Assembly: GCA_015064965.1 (NCBI GenBank)
Contig: SVRG01000006.1
Location: forward strand, 1-44,841
Direction: 5' to 3'
From: Oscillospiraceae bacterium
GTDB taxonomy: Bacteria; Bacillota; Clostridia; Oscillospirales; CAG-272
DNA: 44,841 nt
The stretch's first letter is position 1. Every line of letters starts with the position of its first letter. A program made the translations under genes and the position numbers. Shown here one piece after another: positions 23,384 to 43,794 of this stretch. The notes beneath the pieces are model-generated. The model saw nothing but the letters and a program-made list of their open reading frames with translations, did not search any database and was not told the origin of the DNA.

Positions 23384-24139
23384 ATGGAACAGAAAAACAA
23401 CGAGCAAAAAACCGCACAGATTTTATACATTACTATCATTATGGTTTTGCTTATCATGGCTCTGACGGTAGGGCTTGTCACCGCGGCAAACAGAGGTAAA
23501 ACTCCCGTAGTGACAACCGATGCAAGCGCAGAAAACACAACAAGAGTACCGGCGGTTACAACAAAACTGCCTGCAATTACCACTGCCATTACTACCAAAA
23601 AAGAGCCTGCAGTTACTACAGCACCAAAGCCAAGTACTCTGACTCCTCCCGCACTTACTACAGAGGCAAAACCAACAATTATAGAACCAGCCGAACCTTC
23701 GCTCCCCGAATTTATTATGCCCACTCTCGGCGCAGTATCAAAAAAATTCTCCATTGACACCCTCGTTTACTCAAACACAATGGAGGACTATCGTACCCAC
23801 AACGGGATTGACATTTCCTGCGGAAGCGGAAGTGCAGTCTGCGCCGCGGCAGACGGCATCATCACCGAAGTATACGAGCATCCGATGATGGGCTACACAG
23901 TAGTTATCTCGCACGATGCCGATGCAAAAACCGTATATCAGAATCTTGCGGAAGAAATTATCGTTTCTGTAGGTGACACAGTAAAGCGCGGCGAAGTCAT
24001 TGGCGCAGTGGGCGAAAGTGCACTCATAGAAATCGCAGAAGAACCGCATCTGCACTTTGAAATGTGCATCGCAGACGAGCGCGTAAACCCTGCCGACTAT
24101 ATCTCCAGCGCTACAGAAACATTTTTCTATGAAGAATAA
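23384..24139 (+). CDS. Membrane-anchored M23 (LytM) peptidase, SpoIIQ-like
   Basis: N-terminal TM helix, T/P-rich linker, M23 motifs RTHNGIDISCGSGSAVCAAADG and HLHFEM. Start at MEQKNN (23384) with AAAGGA RBS. Confidence 0.85.
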   Translation: MEQKNNEQKTAQILYITIIMVLLIMALTVGLVTAANRGKTPVVTTDASAENTTRVPAVTTKLPAITTAITTKKEPAVTTAPKPSTLTPPALTTEAKPTIIEPAEPSLPEFIMPTLGAVSKKFSIDTLVYSNTMEDYRTHNGIDISCGSGSAVCAAADGIITEVYEHPMMGYTVVISHDADAKTVYQNLAEEIIVSVGDTVKRGEVIGAVGESALIEIAEEPHLHFEMCIADERVNPADYISSATETFFYEE

Positions 24140-24179
24140 ATAAAAACCGCCCAAACGGCGGTTTTTATTTATTCTTCAT
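24129..24179. terminator. Bidirectional terminator, 23-bp perfect inverted repeat spanning both convergent stop codons
   Basis: ATGAAGAATAAATAAAAACCGCC-caaac-GGCGGTTTTTATTTATTCTTCAT. Confidence 0.9.
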
Positions 24180-30261: not shown

Positions 30262-30311
30262 AAACAAGCGTTGCAGGAGAGGGAGATTGCTCTTAAATGC
30301 AACGCTTGTTT
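30262..30311. repeat. 14-bp perfect inverted repeat AAACAAGCGTTGCA...TGCAACGCTTGTTT
   Basis: Exact arms separated by 22 nt; U-rich on both strands downstream (terminator-like). Confidence 0.75.
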
Positions 30312-30344: not shown

Positions 30345-30426
30345 CAAAACAACGATACCGCTACTGGCACGACTCGTATCAATAGCGGTATCTAATATGG
30401 AATAAACTGCGTTATTCGATACGATG
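30345..30426 (-). repeat. Copy A of a structured intergenic element shared with 40468-40548
   Basis: Minus strand CATCGTATCGAATAACGCAGTTTATTCCATATTAGATACCGCTATTGATACGAGTCGTGCCAGTAGCGGTATCGTTGTTTT; 10-bp hairpin plus second conserved pairing. Confidence 0.85.
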
Positions 30427-30493
30427 AGGGCTAGTATTGGAGTTGCGCCGCATTTATTGTAATTTGAACGGTAAGACTTTTACAACGCAAAAA

Positions 30494-31297
30494 TTAATTT
30501 GAATTTTGTTTTTTATATGCTTTAGGACTTATGCCTCGCTTTTGCTTGAAAAGTCGTGAAAAATAGTGCGTATCATTATACCCAACCGATGCTGCAACTT
30601 CTTTAACCGACATGTCGGTTTGTCTCAGTATCTGGCATGCGAGAGTCATTTTTTGTTCCATTTGATAGTTGTACGGCGTCATACCGTATTCTTTTTTGAA
30701 GAGTTTTACGCAGTAGTCGGCAGAATGGAAAATATGTGCCGCAAGTTCTTCGTTACCGACTAGCCTCGAATAATTTGCATCCAGAAAATCTTTCATCGCC
30801 ACCGCTTCTTTTGAATGAGCGGCACGCATTTTTGTACGATGTAATTTCATAAGAAGCTCCATGTACATTGTTGTGACGATTTGCTGGCATTCCTCGTTTG
30901 AGACTTGAGAGGAGATAAGCGAAGATATTTTTTCAAACATCGGTTTAAGGTTTTCACCGTTATAAAGCCATGAATCCGCAAGCCCGTACTCTTTCAGAAG
31001 TATAAGCGGAAGGGTTCCTTTTAAATTTATAAAAATTTTCTTCCATGGATTCTTAGCACAGGAGTAGTAGTCATGCCGTATTCCGCTTTTTAAGATATAT
31101 ATTTGGTCTTTGGTTACAAGATGCTTTTCTCCGTTCATGCATACATAGCCTTCACCGTCTAAAATATATTCCACGACAGTGTGCGTAGAAAAGCCGCGCT
31201 TCATGTGATATGTGCCGTCGCAGTATGATATGCCTACAGATGTGGCATAGAGTGGCGAAGGATTATTGGTATATAAAAGTCTGAAATCTTCTTTCAC
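30494..31297 (-). CDS. AraC family transcriptional regulator
   Basis: N-terminal cupin-like domain; C-terminal HTH DMSVKEVAASVGYNDTHYFSRLFKQKRGISPKAYKKQ. Confidence 0.95.
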   Translation of the reverse strand: MKEDFRLLYTNNPSPLYATSVGISYCDGTYHMKRGFSTHTVVEYILDGEGYVCMNGEKHLVTKDQIYILKSGIRHDYYSCAKNPWKKIFINLKGTLPLILLKEYGLADSWLYNGENLKPMFEKISSLISSQVSNEECQQIVTTMYMELLMKLHRTKMRAAHSKEAVAMKDFLDANYSRLVGNEELAAHIFHSADYCVKLFKKEYGMTPYNYQMEQKMTLACQILRQTDMSVKEVAASVGYNDTHYFSRLFKQKRGISPKAYKKQNSN

Positions 31298-31321
31298 TTG
31301 TATTCTCCACCTTTTGTATTG

Positions 31322-31380
31322 TAATATGCATTTATTCGTGCCTTTTTAACCATTATAATACAAATTAGATAATATGCAAT
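31322..31380. promoter_or_regulatory. Direct repeats TAATATGCA (31322, 31370) around a TATAAT box (31354-31359) in the araC/DUF4965 divergent promoter
   Basis: Exact 9-mer direct repeat 48 nt apart in the intergenic region between the AraC gene and its likely target. Confidence 0.5.
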
Positions 31381-31397
31381 ACTTTGGAGGATAATTT

Positions 31398-33299
31398 ATG
31401 AAATTACGTGCACCTGCTATACCTTTATTTAATGTTGACCCATATTTTTCGGTATGGATGAACCGAGACTCTGTGAATACGGGCATACCGACACATTGGA
31501 CAGGTTCGCCGAACAACATCTGGGGAACTGTTGTTGTGGACGGAAAAGAATACCGTTTTCTCGGTAGGTCGCTCAGTGCGATAAACCATGACCAAGGTTC
31601 AATCATCAGACAGACAGGCATACAGATAGATGCTTGTTCTACTACGATTTATTTTGAAAATTCACTTATCCGGTTAAAAGCGGTTTTCACAAGCCCCTTG
31701 CTTGCGGATGACCTATATTATTCATCCCGCCCTGTAACCTATCTGCACCTTTCCTATGAGAGTGTTGACGGCAATGAGCATACTGTAAAAGCAAGGCTTG
31801 ATGTGAGCGAAGAATTTGTACTTGATAAAGCCGGCGACGCAAGGGTTTGGTCCGAATCGGTTGAACTGAATGAAGGAAACTGTGTCCGCATGGGTAACGG
31901 CAAGCAGGAGGTGCTTGCAAAATGCGGTGACGATATCCGCATTGACTGGGGATATGTCTATCTTGCAACCAAAGGTTACAGTAAAACGGGCAACTGCATA
32001 AAAGGCGACCTTTACAACATCTACTCCGAAACAGTTCTTGCGCCCGATGCACTTTTTGCGCTTGCGTACGACGATATAGACAGCATTATTTACTTTGAAA
32101 AACCGCTGAAGGCTTATTGGAAAAAAGACGGCAAGACGATTACTGAAGCGATTGATGAGGCGCTGGCTGAGTACGACACTCTCATGGCGCGTTGTCAAAA
32201 GTTTTCTTCGGAGATGCGCGATGCTGCCATTGAAAAAGGAAACGAAGGCTATGCAGACCTTTTGCAGCTTGCATACCGTCAGGTAATGGCAGGGCATAAG
32301 CTTGTCAGGGATGAGGACGGAAACAATCTGTATATTTCCAAAGAATGTTTTTCAAACGGTTGCGCCGCAACAGTGGATATTACATATCCGAGCGCACCGA
32401 TGTATCTGCTATATAATACCGAGCTGCTAAAAGGAATGATGCGTCCGGTGCTTTATTACGCACGCACGGATGCGTGGGAGTTTGACTTTGCTCCGCACGA
32501 TGTGGGGCGTTATCCTATCTTAAACGGTCAGGTTTACGGAAGAAACAGAGTTAAAAGTTACGAACACTATCAAATGCCGCTTGAAGAATGCGGAAATATG
32601 ATCATACTTTTTGCCGCAATAGGCGAGCGCGAAAACGATTTTTCTTTTGCAAAGGAAAATATGGACCTCTTGGAACTTTGGAGCAAATATCTTGTAAAAT
32701 ACGGTGAAGATCCGGATTATCAGCTTTGTACTGATGACTTTGCAGGCCATCTTAACCATAATTGTAATCTGTCGTTAAAGGCTATTATGGGTATCGCCGG
32801 TTATTCTAAAATATTGAAAGCACTTGGGCGCACAGAAGAAGCGGATGAAATGATGCAGACGGCAAAAAAGTTCGCCGACTCATTTCTTATCCGCGGAGCA
32901 AATGCTGACGGCAGCTACCGTCTTGCGTATGACCGCCCCGACACGTTCAGCCTGAAGTATAATGCAATATGGGATAAGGTGTGGGGAACAGAGCTTTTCC
33001 CAAAAAGCTTCTATGAAGGTGAAATGAACCGTTACAAAAAAGCGGCGGACACCTTTGGTATTCCGCTTGACAGCCGATGTGTATACACTAAATCTGACTG
33101 GTTGCATTGGGTATCGTGTTTTGGTGACAAAGAGGACTTCTGTTTTGTAAACGATATGATGGTAAAGGCATATAGTAAAATGCGAGGCACCTCAAGAGTT
33201 CCGCTGACCGATTGGTATAACGTAGACACAACTGTTATGTGCAACTTCAAGCACCGCACCGTACAAGGCGGACTTTTCATGAAACTTTTAATTGATTAA
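31398..33299 (+). CDS. DUF4965/DUF1793 'glutaminase A'-type protein (probable six-hairpin-fold enzyme)
   Basis: Start APAIPLFNVDPYFSVWMNRDSVNTGIPTHWTG; AGHKLVRDEDGNNLYISKECFSNGCAATVDITYPSAPMYLLYN; SLKYNAIWDKVWGTELFP; no signal peptide. Confidence 0.85.
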   Translation: MKLRAPAIPLFNVDPYFSVWMNRDSVNTGIPTHWTGSPNNIWGTVVVDGKEYRFLGRSLSAINHDQGSIIRQTGIQIDACSTTIYFENSLIRLKAVFTSPLLADDLYYSSRPVTYLHLSYESVDGNEHTVKARLDVSEEFVLDKAGDARVWSESVELNEGNCVRMGNGKQEVLAKCGDDIRIDWGYVYLATKGYSKTGNCIKGDLYNIYSETVLAPDALFALAYDDIDSIIYFEKPLKAYWKKDGKTITEAIDEALAEYDTLMARCQKFSSEMRDAAIEKGNEGYADLLQLAYRQVMAGHKLVRDEDGNNLYISKECFSNGCAATVDITYPSAPMYLLYNTELLKGMMRPVLYYARTDAWEFDFAPHDVGRYPILNGQVYGRNRVKSYEHYQMPLEECGNMIILFAAIGERENDFSFAKENMDLLELWSKYLVKYGEDPDYQLCTDDFAGHLNHNCNLSLKAIMGIAGYSKILKALGRTEEADEMMQTAKKFADSFLIRGANADGSYRLAYDRPDTFSLKYNAIWDKVWGTELFPKSFYEGEMNRYKKAADTFGIPLDSRCVYTKSDWLHWVSCFGDKEDFCFVNDMMVKAYSKMRGTSRVPLTDWYNVDTTVMCNFKHRTVQGGLFMKLLID

Positions 33300-33309
33300 G
33301 GAGCAGAAA

Positions 33310-36300
33310 ATGTTTAAACGTTTTTTATCATTGCTATTAAGTCTTACAATGCTTTTGAGCTGCTTTAATGGACTTAATTTAGTAAGCACTGCGGCAGAAG
33401 ACGTTGCTTCAAATGAGAAAACACCGGTAGCATACTATACGTTTGACAACGGCGACCTGTCAGATTCATCGGGCAACGGATATGACGGAAGTGCCGTAGG
33501 CGGCGGAAATCTTACATATGAGAGTAACGCAGGCAGAGGAAAAGTGCTTGAACTCAATAACAAGGGACTAAAGCGTGATACCGGTTCAAACGGCTTTGAT
33601 ATTCCTGTGGACGGACTGAAAAAGGCTGAAAGCTTTACTCTTGTTATGGATATGTATGTTGAAACCGACGGCGGCAATCAGGTATGGTTTGACCTTAGCC
33701 GCGGTAAGTCCCGTGTTGATGCATATCATTATATAGTAGGTCTTTTAGCATACAGCAGTTACGGTATCAATAGCGAACTTGGTACCGCAACGCTTGTTGC
33801 GGATACTACCACCAAAGTGCGCGCATACAACAAGGTCACATTTGACGGTGCCGGCAAGTGGGTACAGATGGCATATGTCAATGACGGCGGCAGCGCCAAG
33901 ATTTATCTTGACGGCGTAGAGGTTGCATCGGCAAATCAGGTATATTCGGTTGCGGATATGCTCACAGTAGAAGATACCACTCTTACCGTTGGTATGGCGG
34001 GTTACTTCAATGACTTGGCACTTGATGCAAAGCTTGATAATGTTGCTGTGTTTGACAGTGCTTTAACGCCTGATGAACTGCGCTCAAGAACATCCTTGCC
34101 GCTTGAAGCGTGGTATGACTTTGAAACGAATAACATAGACGACAGTACGCTTATTGATGCATCCGGTAACGGAAATAATGCAACTGTCCTAAACGGTGCA
34201 TCAGCCGTGAGTGATGTAACTGCCGGGGGCAGTGTTTTAAGACTTGACAATGCAGGTGTCAACGGCAGCAGTGCTAAAGGACTTGCCTTGCCTGCTTCAC
34301 TGTTTTCATCAATGGATGAGTTTACGGTTGTTATGGATGTAAAACTGAATGACAACAGCAAAAACTGGACAAGCCTTATGGTTGGCGGTACTGATAAGAG
34401 CAATTATATGGTCAATGCCAATCGCGGATATAGTGGCGGTGCCATAGGTATAACATCTTCTACAAAGATAAATGGCGGCAGCTCCGCACGTATCAGTGCT
34501 CCAAGCGATACGATGGCACCCGTAGGAGAGTGGACAAGAGCAGTATTTACGCAGGACTCGAGCGGAAATGCCGAAATATATCTTGGCGGCGAACTTGTTG
34601 CATCGGGTACGTTGAATACCACGCTGAAAGCCCTCGCATCTCTCGATGGCAGTGAAATCCGCATAGGCTCAAATCATATTTTTAACGACCCGGGACTTGA
34701 CGGACGCATAGATAATATACGCGTATACAGTGCCGTTTTATCAAGTGGGCAGATTGCCTCTATCCCATTTGGCTACAATGACGATGCGATTGATGATGTC
34801 TATTTCGAAGAACTCGGCGAAAACGGCCTTGTAGCAGATTACCATTTGTTTAATGCAGACGATATGGTATTCGGCGACTATAAGGTCACTTATGTCGAGT
34901 CCAATATTGCATCAAGCGATATGGAGCCGACAATCAAATCACGCACAGGCTTTACCGATTATGTTGGGGTTTGTTATAGCGGAAAAATCGCCGCTCCCGA
35001 AAGCGGATATTACACCTTCTATACCTATTCGGACAACGGTGTGCGTCTGACAATCGACAAAGAAGTGTTGCTTGAATGGTGGGTAAATAAATGGGACGTT
35101 GAGCAGACCTCAACAACCGTTTATCTTGAAAAGGGTGTGCCACACGACTTTAAATTTGAGTGGTTTGAGTGCTCCGGCGGCTCTCACGTAACACTTTATT
35201 GGGCAAATGACTGCTCGCTTGCAAAGCGTATTGTGCCGGCTTCTGCGTTTTACCTTCCTGCTGACTTTGACCTTCCGGTGATAAGCAGCATTGATACGCA
35301 GGGTGCCGAGCTTGAACAAGGCAAAGAGAATTTTGGCGGCATACTTACACTTTCAGGGGCAAATCTTAATAATGCCGAAACCTTTGAACTCATAAAGAGC
35401 AGCGGCGTATCTCTCGAAACTCCGGTATTCTTTGACGTTGTTTCTAAAAATGCCGATACGGCGGTGTTAACGGTTCCCACCGATATTACCGCCGGAAATT
35501 ATAAGATAAAAGCGGCATACGGAGAAAAATCAACCGTTTCTGAAAATATGTTCAACGTTACTATGGCCCTTGGTGAGTCCGACCGCACCGAACACCCCGA
35601 CCCAAACCGCGTGCGTGATAGCTGGGTGAGCCTTAACGGCTGGTGGGACTTTACCTTTGATGCGGACGAGGTTGGTATTGCAGAAGAGTGGTACGTCTTT
35701 GGTAACAAAGAATATGACCAAAAAATTAATGTTCCTTATCCTTGGGAATCCGCGCTCTCCGGAATTAACGATACTTCCTACCGCGGTGTTGCATGGTATC
35801 AAAGAGTCATCCCCGTTGATGAAAGCTGGATAGCTGCAGGCAAAACCACACATTTGCACTTTGGTGCTGTGGATGCGAAATGTATTGTTTATGTCAACGG
35901 AAAAGAGGTAGGCAGACACGACGGAGGATACACTCAGTTTGAGTTTGACATCACCGACTATGTAGTTGCAGGTGACAATGTAATTACACTTTGGGTAGAG
36001 GACAAGGCGGATTATGATGATGAAAGTTATGCCGCACTTGTTGGCAAGCAGGGACATAATGCTCCCTGCGGATATACACATTCATCGGGCATTTGGCAGA
36101 CAGTTTATCTTGAAAGCCGTGACAGCACGTACCTCGAATTCGCGCATGCAAATCCGAACGTCGCAATTGAGGATGGGGAAGATAATTCCGTGCAGTTTGA
36201 CCTTGGTATAATTTCCGAGTGCGAGCAGACTCTCACTGTAAAATACAGTTTTGAGAGCAGGTTGTGGGATGAGACTGCCAAGGCGGATATCCCCACAGGC

Positions 36301-39300
36301 TCTTCTTTTACCGAAACACATACGGTTTCGGTAACTGCAGGCGAGAATATTTTGCAAATGCCCGCTATCGTTATAGATAACGCAAAATGGTGGTCGGATA
36401 AAGAGGCAAATCTTTATTACGGAACAATTGAGATTTCTGACGCGAGCGGAAATGTTCTTGACAGCGTAGGCACTTATTTTGGTTTGCGCGAAGTATATAC
36501 GGCAAAGTATGCGCAAAATGAGTATGAGTATATTTACCTTAACGGAAAGCCGGTTTTTCTTGCCGGACTTTTAGACCAAGGATATTGGGCGGAGGGTATC
36601 TATACCGCACCCGATGAGGAAGCACTTAAATTTGATATTCTGCAGATGAAAAAGCTTGGCTTTAATATGATTCGCAAGCATCTCAAAATAGAAGATCCTC
36701 TTCAGTATTATTGGTGCGACAAGCTCGGTATGTTTGTATGGCAGGATATGCCGCACGCTACTGCGATGAATGCATCGGCACAAGGAGACGCTACTCCCGG
36801 CCGTGCCGTATACGAAACCGCACTTATGTCTGTGCTCGACCGTGACTATAACCGCCCGTCAGTGATAATGATGATTCTGTTTAACGAAACATGGGGTATC
36901 AGTCACACCGGTGCGAAATCGGGCGATGACGGCATGACTACGCATGAGTGGATGCAGTATCTTTACCACAAAGTTGCAGCGTATAACCCGGGGCTTCTTA
37001 TAGAGGATATGTCGGCTTGCCATGAGGACCATATTCAGCCTACAGATGTTAACACATTCCATATGTATCCAAACTCATATCAGGCGGCGTACAATATGGT
37101 CAAGGAGTTTGTTGACGGCGCGTATGCAGGCTCGGGCGATAACTTCTATAACGGATTTCCCCAAGAGGGCGAACCTCTCTTAAACTCGGAATTCGGAGGA
37201 GTAGGTGCGTACGAGGGCGACTTTGACGTATCGCTTTGCTTTAAGTACCAGACCGATATTATGCGTATGTATCAAAAGATGAACGGTTATGTCTATACAG
37301 AACCGTATGATATCGAGTATGAGCGTAACGGCATTATGACATATGACCGTAGAACAAAACTGTTCCCGTACAGTGAAATTGCTTACGGCGGCGATATGTC
37401 CATGGTAGATCTTAACCAGCCAAACTACGTCGGAATAGATGCAGAACCTGCAAGAGAACTTACCGCAGGTGCGGTATTTTCTGCCGATGCGGTTGCGCTC
37501 AACTGGTCGGGAGATATGTTTGAAAATGCGGTATTGAAATGGCGTTTTGACGCTACCGATGTGTACGGAAACAACATTACAACCGGTATTTGCGGCGAAA
37601 CCGGAATAACATATGCCGCATACACCTCGGAAAGATACAATATCACATTTAATGTTCCGAATCAGACTTGTGTCGGCACTCTCACCGTGTGGATTGAGGA
37701 GAACGGCGTAAAGGTAGCAAATAACTTTGTCAATGTTGTGGTTACCGCACCGGTTACTGCGGCAGTTGACTATATCGACGAGAATTCGGTTGCTCTTCGC
37801 AAAAAGGACGCGGAGCAGCAGTTCACAAACGATGGTAGTATTTCTGTAGAATATGATATTCCAAAAGGCTATGACCTTGGCAACCTTAACGCACTTCGTG
37901 TTATTGCTGAGATTTCTTCCGTGAAAGGTTCAAGCGTTACAAACGGTATCACAAACTCTGCATATGCACAGACTACTGTGGGAAGCGAGCGCCCATCGGA
38001 CATGACCGTTTACGTTAACGGCATCGAGATAGATACTGTTTATATCCCCGATAATCCCCGTGATATCCGTGGCACTCTCACACTTAGCAGCGCATATAAC
38101 AGCGGCTCGTCCGCAGGCGATTTCGGATATCTTTTGAACATCAACATTCCGTCCGACAAAATAGATGATGTTCGCTCGGCTATTGAAGCTGACGGAAAGA
38201 TAACCGTTACATATTCGGTCGAAAGAGATGCTGAAAACAAAAACGGTCTTCGCCTCTACGGCGATACCACGGGCAGATATGCAGTTGACCCCACAGTTAT
38301 TCTTAATCCTGTGGATATTTACGGTAATGCAACACCCGAAAACGGTAACTATACAGTTACGGCAATTCTTTCCGACGAAGAGGTAATATCCTTGCGCGGT
38401 GGTGCCATGGTGGCAAAACTATGCGGCAACACTCTTTCTCTCGGTACAAAAACCGCAAATGTGGGAGAGGGAACTCACACGGTAACTGTGCGTGTATTTG
38501 ACGAACACTATCAGGCGTATGTAGATGATGATCCCGTGCCTGTTATTGACCTGTACAACTATACGCCTTACATATCCACCGAAGTATCAACAACAGGTTC
38601 GGAACTTGTTATAGCACCTGAAACCTATGTAGTTGCGAAAGCAGATAAAATTGCACAAAGTGATGTACAGTTTGCCGACCACTATAATGATGACACATTT
38701 GATAGCCGTTATCAAATTTCAGGCGGAAGTTGGATACAGACAGACGGTAAACTCAGCGTGACTGCCGAGGAAAGTGCAAAGGCAACGGTAGCCAATGTTA
38801 TAAGTGAGGATATCATTGTTGAAACCGACATAACTCTCGATAGCGGCGAAGATATCGGTGTAGTTATACGCGATGGCTATTATATTACTGTAAGCAACGG
38901 AAACATCCGTATTGAATGTGACGGAAATATACTTTCAGAGAAGACGGTAACTGATATCACCTACAATAAAACAAACCGACTTAAAGTTGTTGCGGTAGGT
39001 TCACGTATCCGGGTTTATTTAAACAATGAACTTAAAGCACGCATGGATGTATATGACACCACCTACCCAAGCGGTGCTGTGGCACTTTATGCATGCAACG
39101 CAAGCGGTAGCTATGACAACACGGTTATTTCTACAGCTCCTCGCTATAAAACCGATTTCGCAAACGGCAAACTCTCAGAGTGGACGGTTTTGGGTGAATA
39201 TGAAATAACCGACAGCGCACTTGTCGGAAGCGGTGATATACTTGTAGGTAACGTTGGCTGGACAGACCTTGGTATGCGCACAGACGTCACTGTTTCTAAT

Positions 39301-40368
39301 GATGTTGTTGCAGGACTTATACTCCGAGGTGTGACACTTGGTGGCAAGTTGTACGGTTATTACGTAACACTTGATGCCGCAAATGACAAGATACAGATAA
39401 GAAAAGTGGTAGCGGGTATTGATACTATCATTGCCGAGACAGATATGGCAGTTGATAGCGGGACTTACAATATATGTGCTACAGCAGTAAATAACGGTAT
39501 CAGAGTTTATGTCAATAATTCTTCCGAGGCTGTGCTTGCCATAAACGATAATGATTATATGTCAGGCATGGCAGGTCTTGTTACCATTTCGGGCACGGCA
39601 TCGTTTGATAATGTGGATATTACCGATAAGTTTGTCTATATAGAAAACTTCAGCGATGGCACTTTGTCCGGATGGAGTAAAGCTGCTGATATTGTAAGTG
39701 TTGCAAATAATATCCTTACAATTAAGCAGGTTCCAAAGGGACCTAACGGAGATAAGGTTTGGGACGGTTATGCGACATGGGATAACTATGTTATGGAGAT
39801 GGACATGAAGATGACCATCCGTGCAAGTAAATCCAATGCAGGCTTTATGTTCCGCGGTACTGACTTCACCGCAGGCGTAGATAATTATCGCGGCTATGTT
39901 CTCGGTATCAATACTTACGAGGACCGTACCACTGCACTTAACGGCAACGGAATCGAGTTTGGCGATATTCATTACGGCTTCAGAAGCATAAAAACTCTGC
40001 CCGGCTCAACTTTCTCGCCGCTCGGCAATAAATGGTATCATCTTAAAGTTACTGTAAACGGTGATACTGTTACTGTAAATGTTGACGGTACAGATTATTT
40101 CACTGCTACTGACAGCGCATATTTATACGGTCAGTTCGGCATGCGAATCTATACCACTGCTGCTTCATTTAAGAATTTGACAGTAACACCTATCACTGCT
40201 GATATTTTGGGTGACGTTAATTCTGATGGGCAGATAACGATTATGGATGTGTTGATGCTTATTCGTGCGGTTTGCAATGACGAGTATATCGAAAACGGAG
40301 ATATAAGCGGTGACAAAAAAATAGATCTTATTGACGTTTTGCGTGCAATGAAACGGATTGCACAGTAA
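33310..40368 (+). CDS. Secreted multidomain GH2-family glycoside hydrolase (LamG x2, PA14, TIG-like, GH2, ConA-like modules, C-terminal dockerin)
   Basis: Signal peptide; LamG-type YYTFDNGDLSDSSGNGYDG; PA14-type SGYYTFYTYSDNGVRLTID; GH2 WYQRVIPVDESW, NGKPVFLAG, NRPSVIMMILFNETWG, NSEFGG; C-terminal GDVNSDGQITIMDVLMLIRAV...GDISGDKKIDLIDVLRAMKRIAQ. Confidence 0.9.
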   Translation: MFKRFLSLLLSLTMLLSCFNGLNLVSTAAEDVASNEKTPVAYYTFDNGDLSDSSGNGYDGSAVGGGNLTYESNAGRGKVLELNNKGLKRDTGSNGFDIPVDGLKKAESFTLVMDMYVETDGGNQVWFDLSRGKSRVDAYHYIVGLLAYSSYGINSELGTATLVADTTTKVRAYNKVTFDGAGKWVQMAYVNDGGSAKIYLDGVEVASANQVYSVADMLTVEDTTLTVGMAGYFNDLALDAKLDNVAVFDSALTPDELRSRTSLPLEAWYDFETNNIDDSTLIDASGNGNNATVLNGASAVSDVTAGGSVLRLDNAGVNGSSAKGLALPASLFSSMDEFTVVMDVKLNDNSKNWTSLMVGGTDKSNYMVNANRGYSGGAIGITSSTKINGGSSARISAPSDTMAPVGEWTRAVFTQDSSGNAEIYLGGELVASGTLNTTLKALASLDGSEIRIGSNHIFNDPGLDGRIDNIRVYSAVLSSGQIASIPFGYNDDAIDDVYFEELGENGLVADYHLFNADDMVFGDYKVTYVESNIASSDMEPTIKSRTGFTDYVGVCYSGKIAAPESGYYTFYTYSDNGVRLTIDKEVLLEWWVNKWDVEQTSTTVYLEKGVPHDFKFEWFECSGGSHVTLYWANDCSLAKRIVPASAFYLPADFDLPVISSIDTQGAELEQGKENFGGILTLSGANLNNAETFELIKSSGVSLETPVFFDVVSKNADTAVLTVPTDITAGNYKIKAAYGEKSTVSENMFNVTMALGESDRTEHPDPNRVRDSWVSLNGWWDFTFDADEVGIAEEWYVFGNKEYDQKINVPYPWESALSGINDTSYRGVAWYQRVIPVDESWIAAGKTTHLHFGAVDAKCIVYVNGKEVGRHDGGYTQFEFDITDYVVAGDNVITLWVEDKADYDDESYAALVGKQGHNAPCGYTHSSGIWQTVYLESRDSTYLEFAHANPNVAIEDGEDNSVQFDLGIISECEQTLTVKYSFESRLWDETAKADIPTGSSFTETHTVSVTAGENILQMPAIVIDNAKWWSDKEANLYYGTIEISDASGNVLDSVGTYFGLREVYTAKYAQNEYEYIYLNGKPVFLAGLLDQGYWAEGIYTAPDEEALKFDILQMKKLGFNMIRKHLKIEDPLQYYWCDKLGMFVWQDMPHATAMNASAQGDATPGRAVYETALMSVLDRDYNRPSVIMMILFNETWGISHTGAKSGDDGMTTHEWMQYLYHKVAAYNPGLLIEDMSACHEDHIQPTDVNTFHMYPNSYQAAYNMVKEFVDGAYAGSGDNFYNGFPQEGEPLLNSEFGGVGAYEGDFDVSLCFKYQTDIMRMYQKMNGYVYTEPYDIEYERNGIMTYDRRTKLFPYSEIAYGGDMSMVDLNQPNYVGIDAEPARELTAGAVFSADAVALNWSGDMFENAVLKWRFDATDVYGNNITTGICGETGITYAAYTSERYNITFNVPNQTCVGTLTVWIEENGVKVANNFVNVVVTAPVTAAVDYIDENSVALRKKDAEQQFTNDGSISVEYDIPKGYDLGNLNALRVIAEISSVKGSSVTNGITNSAYAQTTVGSERPSDMTVYVNGIEIDTVYIPDNPRDIRGTLTLSSAYNSGSSAGDFGYLLNINIPSDKIDDVRSAIEADGKITVTYSVERDAENKNGLRLYGDTTGRYAVDPTVILNPVDIYGNATPENGNYTVTAILSDEEVISLRGGAMVAKLCGNTLSLGTKTANVGEGTHTVTVRVFDEHYQAYVDDDPVPVIDLYNYTPYISTEVSTTGSELVIAPETYVVAKADKIAQSDVQFADHYNDDTFDSRYQISGGSWIQTDGKLSVTAEESAKATVANVISEDIIVETDITLDSGEDIGVVIRDGYYITVSNGNIRIECDGNILSEKTVTDITYNKTNRLKVVAVGSRIRVYLNNELKARMDVYDTTYPSGAVALYACNASGSYDNTVISTAPRYKTDFANGKLSEWTVLGEYEITDSALVGSGDILVGNVGWTDLGMRTDVTVSNDVVAGLILRGVTLGGKLYGYYVTLDAANDKIQIRKVVAGIDTIIAETDMAVDSGTYNICATAVNNGIRVYVNNSSEAVLAINDNDYMSGMAGLVTISGTASFDNVDITDKFVYIENFSDGTLSGWSKAADIVSVANNILTIKQVPKGPNGDKVWDGYATWDNYVMEMDMKMTIRASKSNAGFMFRGTDFTAGVDNYRGYVLGINTYEDRTTALNGNGIEFGDIHYGFRSIKTLPGSTFSPLGNKWYHLKVTVNGDTVTVNVDGTDYFTATDSAYLYGQFGMRIYTTAASFKNLTVTPITADILGDVNSDGQITIMDVLMLIRAVCNDEYIENGDISGDKKIDLIDVLRAMKRIAQ

Positions 40369-40423
40369 AACATCTCTTTTTCACGCTTTCGAATATGAGT
40401 TGAATACCGTGAAATGATAAAAA

Positions 40424-40461
40424 CTCCTATGGTAGAGTAGAAACTATCATAGGAGTTTTTT
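40424..40461 (+). terminator. Intrinsic terminator after the giant GH2 gene
   Basis: AAAAACTCCTATGGTAG...CTATCATAGGAGTTTTTT hairpin with T-run. Confidence 0.85.
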
Positions 40462-40467
40462 GTTCTA

Positions 40468-40548
40468 TAAAATAACGATACCGCAGTTGACGTAATTGTA
40501 TCAACTGCGGTATCAGATATGGAATAAACTACGATATTTGATACAATG
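40468..40548 (-). repeat. Copy B of the structured intergenic element shared with 30345-30426
   Basis: Minus strand CATTGTATCAAATATCGTAGTTTATTCCATATCTGATACCGCAGTTGATACAATTACGTCAACTGCGGTATCGTTATTTT; 14-bp perfect hairpin. Confidence 0.85.
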
Positions 40549-40575
40549 CAACGCTACGGAGAGGAGCGTTGCATT
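40545..40575. repeat. 11-bp hairpin AATGCAACGCT-acggagagg-AGCGTTGCATT adjoining copy B
   Basis: Exact inverted repeat; shares GCAACGCT and the GGAGAGG loop with the hairpin at 30262-30311. Confidence 0.75.
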
Positions 40576-43583: not shown

Positions 43584-43667
43584 AGTCTTTTCTCCTTGCT
43601 TTTTTAAATTTGCAATTAGTGTTTTACATTCTAAATATATATTTGCAACCGGGGTTTTGCAATGATA

Positions 43668-43794
43668 AATCGTTTAATGGATATACCAATCGTTCAAACA
43701 CAATGTAAAATCCGTTTTTTAAAATATTATTGAACGATTTGTAAATACATTGAACGCATTGTTATTGCCACAATGCATGTTTTTGAGGTATACT
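43668..43794 (+). promoter_or_regulatory. Divergent promoter with four related 10-mers (AATCGTTYAA / TTGAACGNATT) and TTGCCA-18-TATACT
   Basis: AATCGTTTAA 43668, AATCGTTCAA 43688, TTGAACGATT 43730, TTGAACGCATT 43750; TTGCCA 43765-43770, TATACT 43789-43794. Confidence 0.5.

Follow-up and report, generated by a model that had tools for sequence, protein, structure and literature searches.

Duplicated structured elements in an Oscillospiraceae genome as probable attP-type sites of serine-recombinase elements targeting tRNA and tmRNA 3′ ends

A structured repeat present in two copies, A and B, in an Oscillospiraceae contig (the window, 44,841 nucleotides) most probably represents attP-type DNA attachment sites of integrative elements that rely on a large serine recombinase (LSR) for mobility and target the 3′ ends of tRNA and tmRNA genes. 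We give this reading a probability of roughly 85%, on the basis of the site geometry, the linkage to LSR genes and an attP rebuilt in a relative. As in LSR attP sites, each half-site of the family measures about 25 bp and bears a distal motif, and the two are inverted around a constant central dinucleotide. The proposed attP would be an inverted site of 51-52 bp, composed of the P′ 9-mer TTSTATCAA, about 16 bp, CA, about 15-16 bp and the P 9-mer TTGATASAA. On this reading, what had appeared as a puzzling “RNA element” becomes an attachment site that can be tested and whose motif, core and partner enzyme are specified.

A sequence-only reading had described copies A (30345-30426) and B (40468-40548), both on the minus strand, as a duplicated structured element, and this description holds: the copies are 79% identical across 82 nt (BLAST), and local alignment of their surroundings scores 102, where none of 300 shuffles exceeded 47. 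Both copies contain the reported invariant core AGTTTATTCCATAT, then GATACCGC...GCGGTATCGTTRTTTT, display the quoted paired changes, including ATCGTATC/GATACGA versus ATTGTATC/GATACAA, and lie about 68-69 nt from the stop codons of the AraC (30494) and dockerin-protein (40617) genes. They are also the only two full copies in the assembled genome (core with ≤3 mismatches). In A the main hairpin has 13 bp and a shuffle z-score of -4.7; in B it has 14-16 bp and a z-score of -6.6. The 988-aa protein next to B had been labelled GLUG-dockerin; since Pfam detects dockerin alone, only that half of the label is confirmed. The features are collected in Table 1. The mobile-element left end of L067, L064, L069 and L070 continues with a second hairpin, and H2 near A appears to be its counterpart; the hairpin that precedes the P′ half-site in B also stands upstream of P′ in L066 and, weaker, in L068.

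Table 1. Features of copies A and B, the segment between them, and the LSR gene in L067
Feature	Position	Strand	Basis
Copy A putative attachment site, attP architecture	30374..30424	-	sequence and family comparison
Copy A P′ 9-mer TCGTATCGA	30416-30424	-	
Copy A core CA	30398-30399	-	
Copy A P 9-mer TTGATACGA	30374-30382	-	
Copy A hairpin, 13 bp, loop 13, overlaps P half-site	30354..30392	-	folding; family covariation
GTTGTTTT run 3′ of copy A hairpin	30346-30353	-	
H2, second hairpin, AAACAAGCGTTGCA...TGCAACGCTTGTTT	30262..30311	-	83% over 134 bp to G000:C47
Copy B putative attachment site, attP architecture	40496..40546	-	sequence and family comparison
Copy B P′ 9-mer TTGTATCAA	40538-40546	-	
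Copy B core CA	40520-40521	-	
Copy B P 9-mer TTGATACAA	40496-40504	-	
Copy B hairpin, 16 bp, loop 8, with TTATTTTATA tail; overlaps P half-site	40476..40515	-	folding; terminator scan
Hairpin ATGCAACGCT...AGCGTTGCAT directly upstream of B's P′ half-site	40546..40574	-	
10.1-kb segment between the two junctions, candidate cargo	30400..40519	.	
AraC regulator	30494-31297	-	
Glutaminase A	31398-33299	+	
GH2/dockerin enzyme	33292-40368	+	
LSR gene in L067	10493-12037		

Relatives were collected by covariance-model search, mostly from fragmented assemblies in which many sites lie at contig ends. In these relatives the element resolves into two independent modules joined at CCA. The 3′ module is the hairpin, with a variable, covarying stem and the constant loop motif TTGATASAA; the 5′ module holds an inverted copy of that loop motif. 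Each occurs without the other: the hairpin follows tRNA genes without the 5′ half, and the 5′ half is found without the hairpin of A/B in L068/L015. The CA dinucleotide is in register at 31 of 32 hairpin sites, and a perfect inverted 9-mer stands at -42/-43 in seven of the 32 registered sites, all of them lacking a tRNA on the left. The combination of TTSTATCRA at -42/-43 with TTGATASRA at 0, 51-52 bp in total, is found in A, B, L066, L067, L166, L173 and L165u3. The half-site pattern TNSTATCRA-N15/16-CA alone is unspecific (28 occurrences, with chance accounting for about 9); the specificity of the site pattern lies in the second 9-mer and the register.

Across the family, 16 hairpin units directly follow the CCA of intact tRNA or tmRNA genes, namely Pro(cgg, ggg, tgg), Ser(cga, gct), Leu(gag, cag, caa), Met and tmRNA, and other units follow copied tRNA 3′ ends. 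The tRNA-Pro(cgg) gene is followed directly by a hairpin unit in G134 and G178, and by a plain terminator in G091 (97% identical). In G237, the order is tRNA-Arg, a copied tRNA-Arg 3′ end with P, 2518 bp, and P′ with a terminator; the attP rebuilt from the two ends of this element agrees at 50 of 52 positions with a natural junction of the A/B kind found in that array. Further P′-terminator ends are present in L068, L164 and L187, and the CA core recurs both in such ends and in the encoded CCA of the tRNAs.

The LSR carries Resolvase, Recombinase and Zn-ribbon domains. Its homologues (55-96% identical) face the site with their 3′ end at several tRNAs, in L064, L226, L227, L229 and L234, and also in L224/L225; the LSR genes in L067, L171 and L172 are likewise oriented. 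Beside a more distant LSR (L235), the motif is altered on both sides (TGGTATCAA/TTGATACCA), and no recognisable site was found near the homologues in L228 and L230-L233. The LSR gene lies within the same element in the family, not beside A and B themselves: none was found near either copy, and the own genome (assembly about 80% complete) has only broken pieces, on contig C60. One could ask whether the sites belong instead to a tyrosine-integrase element, with the serine recombinases as passengers, given that tRNA 3′ ends are classic targets of such enzymes, that a tyrosine-type gene in L171 directly precedes a tRNA-Met 3′ half with its unit, and that the TAATCGTT direct repeats in left ends are similar to arm sites. 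However, the L171 gene abuts a tRNA 3′ half that begins at the anticodon loop, with an LSR C-terminus across the CCA junction, the recurrent neighbours of the unit in the tested loci are LSRs, and a symmetric 51-52-bp site with a 2-bp shared core suits serine integrases; we therefore consider this explanation improbable.

The sequence-only reading had favoured a single undescribed 3′-UTR RNA element or sRNA, selected as RNA and folded into a pseudoknot by pairing of its loop with the 5′ segment. Its hairpin is strong and real, located at gene 3′ ends, and its compensatory changes are upheld in the larger set, where four pairs changed on both sides and 11 cells were seen versus 4.2 expected (0 of 500 shuffles); A additionally offers one paired C-G to T-A change. 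The pseudoknot did not survive the comparison with relatives. The loop-to-upstream pairing coincides with the inverted 9-mer pair centred on CA, the two halves are found apart, and most copies have a tRNA end as their left half. Moreover, in three of eight two-half sites (L066, L067, L173) the central S position is G-G or C-C, such that pairing is broken while both 9-mers remain intact, which is easier to reconcile with a symmetric DNA-binding site than with an RNA helix. No Rfam family reached the gathering score in the window, where weak matches were judged to be chance, and the related loci gave only tRNA. An RNA element of this kind is thus very unlikely, and the repeat largely resembles a mobile-element end, which the sequence-only reading had itself named as speaking against its proposal. 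If A and B are attachment sites, the apparent pseudoknot would be a pair of inverted recombinase-binding sites.

The idea of a structured terminator fared better in part, as copy B passes a simple intrinsic-terminator scan and copy A fails it, its loop being too long. The hairpin could be no more than a terminator that tRNA genes in this bacterial family commonly use, reused at A and B by chance and without mobility, in line with its T-run and its place after tRNAs and tmRNA. We find this hard to sustain: termination needs no loop conserved across genera, the same tRNA has an ordinary terminator in G091, and the inverted motif beyond CA, the tRNA 3′-end copies and the paired G237 ends would be left unexplained. 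Least credible is a dispersed non-autonomous repeat (a MITE, or the end of a DNA transposon) propagated by a transposase, since the repetition, the frequent contig-end location and a weak likeness between left and right ends stand against insertion at the same CA every time, adjacent LSR genes, G237 element ends that are P and P′, and neither target-site duplications nor matched terminal inverted repeats being seen.

Several other candidates were rejected. Integron attC sites do not fit, as GTTATTT/GTTGTTT mismatch GTTRRRY (of the RYYYAAC...GTTRRRY boxes) and there is an 18-nt one-sided bulge; IS200/IS605-type ends were dropped, no fitting enzyme being seen. The 5′ half of A/B is not a decayed tRNA 3′ end (ATCRAAT in T-loop register), the stretch being the inverted loop 9-mer, and B and L015 are not an empty/filled pair, since their right flanks belong to different loci and L015 represents a P′-terminator end. 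Exact-pattern matches in viral and genome collections, without a covariance-model match, were judged to be chance, as were most matches to the hairpin 3′-arm pattern.

Returning to the attachment-site reading, we propose from the sequences that an LSR catalyses the exchange, with CA as the crossover. The chromosomal attB would be a tRNA or tmRNA gene 3′ end, its core the CA of CCA, and integration would generate attL on the left (tRNA-CCA joined to P) and attR on the right (P′-CA joined to the native terminator). Because insertion parts the tRNA from its own terminator, the P side would supply a replacement, its hairpin presumably terminating transcription. The left stem would fall within the P half-site, with the right stem and the T-run immediately beyond it; since the hairpin straddles the half-site edge, the stem covaries and the loop, the recombinase motif, stays constant. 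An element inserting into the attL of another would create a P′-CA-P junction, and A and B may have originated as such junctions, on either side of a 10-kb block of glycoside-hydrolase and AraC cargo, with the left end truncated past the second hairpin at A and past the first at B. The block may not be one element delimited by B and A, because the P′ motif of A matches A's own P better than that of B. Bearing on the candidate cargo, the gene upstream of GerA in G178, G134 and G091 is a methyltransferase-like one instead.

Whether these sites define an undescribed class of cargo-carrying elements, in which the LSR uses a generic tRNA/tmRNA 3′-end attB and an attP half-site doubles as a terminator, we regard as an even bet. 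In such a class, the generic attB features would be the CA of CCA at a set distance from the T-loop, and since tRNA and tmRNA 3′ ends share them, one recombinase family could use nearly any tRNA gene. The cargo would often include anti-phage defence genes, P′-P junctions such as A and B would be the stacking points of arrays, and half-site and terminator would be under coupled selection at the DNA and RNA levels. A serine recombinase accepting many tRNA 3′ ends would have an unusual target breadth, and would help explain the arrays of defence and polysaccharide-degradation genes behind tRNA genes in these bacteria. The motif (TTSTATCAA, 16, CA, 15-16, TTGATASAA) provides a handle for element ends in fragmented genomes. 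It also carries a caution, namely that a palindromic recombination site overlapping a terminator, with covariation, can mimic a pseudoknotted RNA.

Our literature search, partial in its full-text coverage, found no description of an A/B-type site. Intrinsic (rho-independent) terminators share the hairpin and T-rich tail; unlike them, the sites described here have a constant loop motif and a set 15-16-nt spacing from the CA core, both attributable to attachment-site function. Of the known kinds, the Dehalococcoides ssrA islands and SCC come closest. SCC/SCCmec elements (CcrA/CcrB) likewise combine an LSR pair, a target at the 3′ end of a gene and composite arrays with repeated attachment sites. 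Their target is one protein gene, rlmH, and they differ from the present elements in targets, motif and bacterial group. The logic of the SCC recombinase pair is discussed in a study of the Dehalococcoides ssrA islands (PMC3146451). These islands (DsiB/DsiA) are, as here, arranged in tandem at the tmRNA 3′ end and bounded by copies of the gene 3′ end, with a CcrB-like serine recombinase and a smaller second one beside attL and variable cargo between repeats (PMC3146451). In contrast, their sole target is ssrA, with insertion in the T-loop, whereas here the junction is at CCA of many tRNAs and tmRNA; a terminator hairpin lies over the P half-site here, and the word “terminator” is absent from that paper (PMC3146451). 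The attP sites of A118/LI-family serine integrases, as described in part of the source (PMC3783163), are similarly pseudo-palindromic, with 25-bp half-sites, a shared crossover dinucleotide and a continuous 9-bp distal zinc-domain motif at positions 16-24. The LI motif TTTAGTATC is similar to TTSTATCAA, the sequences not being identical, and that part of the source describes no terminator hairpin within the site (PMC3783163). Relative to these known kinds, what is new is the combination of many tRNA targets with a terminator overlapping an attachment half-site.

The repeat that the sequence-only reading had proposed to be a pseudoknotted 3′-UTR RNA element or a dispersed repeat is indeed present twice: copies A and B resemble each other far above chance (79% over 82 nt), and their hairpin is strong whichever strand is folded. 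In the assembled genome (G000, 2.06 Mb, ~80% complete) A and B are the only places with the full core, which was absent, at 0–2 mismatches, from every other genome in a search of 196 family genomes; comparison of A and B with Rfam gave weak matches only, none at gathering score. Using a covariance model built from both copies (R1), we found strongly scoring copies confined to the same genus, and their alignment divides the element at a CCA. The hairpin side stands alone at three loci (L008, L009 and L012), abutting the CCA of tRNA-Pro(cgg) at the last two, whereas at L013 and L015 the left side is followed by different hairpins. Since the halves occur apart, pairing between them is not what maintains either.

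To locate such sites, 395 family genomes were searched by BLAST with both end types, and the same family was scanned with another model, R2, made from 13 sequences. The hairpin unit, a stem-loop with the loop motif TTGATAS, directly abuts the CCA of intact genes for tRNA-Pro(cgg, ggg), tRNA-Ser(cga, gct), tRNA-Leu(gag), tRNA-Met and tmRNA; with those added by the recombinase search below, intact genes carry it at 16 sites overall, and other units follow copies of tRNA 3′ ends or decayed pieces of such ends. The compensatory changes noticed between A and B extend to these relatives, with both sides altered in four stem pairs, pairing in 93.5% of cells and a stem covariation score exceeding 500/500 shuffles, while the loop TTGATAS is invariant. 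In G091, an ordinary terminator directly follows a tRNA-Pro(cgg) gene that shares 97% identity with its G134/G178 counterpart, indicating that the hairpin unit is an addition.

When 32 sites were aligned on the loop motif, the CA of CCA fell at a single fixed position in 31. Seven sites without a left tRNA, A and B among them, carry a perfect TTSTATCRA at −42/−43 (TCGTATCGA in A), the reverse complement of the loop motif, resulting in a symmetric 51–52-bp site with CA at its centre. The loop-to-upstream pairing once proposed thus reduces to inverted 9-mers, here named P (hairpin side) and P′: in L066, L067 and L173 the S position is unequal between sides, breaking the RNA pair with both motifs intact, and the halves are separable. 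At L235, whose neighbouring recombinase is more distant, the two motifs have changed jointly (TGGTATCAA/TTGATACCA). The layout, 25 + CA + 24 or 25, is identical to that of the serine integrase attP as described in PMC3783163, which has a pair of 25-bp half-sites whose uninterrupted 9-bp zinc-domain motifs span positions 16–24 counted from the crossover.

At L067, the protein encoded beside the unit combines Resolvase, Recombinase and zinc-ribbon domains. Used as a query over the 395 genomes, this protein revealed relatives with the 3′ end directed towards a unit that follows tRNA-Ser(gct) (L226), tRNA-Leu(cag) (L227), tRNA-Leu(caa) (L229), tRNA-Pro(tgg) (L234) and, with ~10 kb between, tRNA-Pro(cgg) (L064), as well as at L171 and L172 in two further genera. 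The recombinase genes are frequently two in tandem; the second, 37–44% identical, usually lies directly upstream (L224–L228, L230, L233–L235 and others). L168, in the genome of A and B, is a decayed element of ~1.9 kb, and at L171 two integrase classes are stacked on a single tRNA.

Both ends of an element can be followed at L165, where a tRNA-Arg with its own terminator is followed, ~190 nt on, by a tRNA 3′-end copy and a hairpin unit, and P′ (TTCTATCAATATCTACTACGCAACACA) abuts an ordinary terminator 2518 bp beyond that unit. Joining the P halves gives TTCTATCAATATCTACTACGCAACACA followed by AAAAGAAACGACTATTTTGATAGAA, which differs at 2/52 positions from the natural P′-P junction at the array's far end, and the outer flanks, once joined, form a tRNA 3′ end with a terminator behind it. 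Further ends with P′ against a terminator were found at L068, L164 and L187. The right edge of the L165 array adjoins a glutamine-synthetase-like gene, and a similar gene lies beside the dockerin P′–terminator end of G134 (L068). Right ends (L162, L164, L168, L187 and L067) have in common TTGCACCCC-like repeats upstream of P′ and just inside it, and left ends have in common TAATCGTT direct repeats, ~20 bp apart; both are possibly accessory-protein sites or cargo exchange points.

Based on these sites, we propose that the recombinase would join attP to the tRNA 3′ end at CA, leaving the tRNA sequence unchanged, with a new terminator supplied by the element. With the hairpin's left stem inside the P half-site and its right stem and T-run beyond it, the tRNA would gain a terminator, and this overlap of attachment site and terminator would account for the fixed loop, the covarying stem and the copies at gene 3′ ends. 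The hairpin is a putative terminator: B passes a simple terminator scan, and A fails it because of its 13-nt loop.

A and B are each a P′-CA-P junction. Along the minus strand, the dockerin gene comes first, followed by B, a block of 10.1 kb, A and GerA, the block holding a GH2/dockerin enzyme (+), glutaminase A (+) and AraC (−). Upstream of the GerA orthologues in G178, G134 and G091 lies a methyltransferase-like gene (named by sequence), and A is missing there, so A marks an island edge. Past A, the left end follows the mobile elements through a second hairpin and then stops, matching G000:C47 at 83% over 134 bp; past B, it stops after the first hairpin. We take A and B to be probable stacking junctions of partly decayed elements, and the 10-kb block may be a single element.

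Positions of the repeat copies, element loci and palindromes
Feature	Sequence	Positions	Strand	Content
A	window	30345-30426	−	repeat copy
B	window	40468-40548	−	repeat copy
Palindrome	window	24129-24179		51 bp, near-perfect, separating the genes for M23 peptidase and CNNM/CBS; probable bidirectional terminator
Palindrome	window	43659-43768		110 bp, imperfect, upstream of dockerin gene
Same palindrome	L068	6502-6611, 399-518		
L165	G237:C5	4659-11852		tRNA-Arg(acg) followed by an array in which a tRNA 3′-end copy plus hairpin occurs twice (340 bp, 88%), with small intervening cargo blocks
L168	G000:C60	300-2301		tRNA-Pro(tgg), hairpin unit, broken serine recombinase pieces, P′ half
L171	G371:C123	5610-7619		tyrosine-integrase-like gene, tRNA-Met 3′ half from anticodon loop, unit, serine recombinase C-terminus
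L067	G134:C58	3499-8972		defence-type cargo in or beside element (with L066: PDC-M11A candidate, HNH, RES/HEPN, Shedu SduA; AbiH, C5 DNA methylase)
L066	G134:C66	3576-7021		defence-type cargo in or beside element

In the relatives, genes for Shedu, AbiH, a C5 methylase, a PDC-M11A candidate and RES/HEPN are among the cargo. Among open-licence papers we found no description of this element family. The tandem serine recombinase genes resemble CcrA/CcrB pairs, and the nearest described system found is that of the Dehalococcoides ssrA islands, tandem islands behind tmRNA with a CcrB-like serine recombinase, which were themselves compared with SCC (PMC3146451). The present family differs from these islands in its broad range of tRNA targets, its CCA junction and its built-in terminator.
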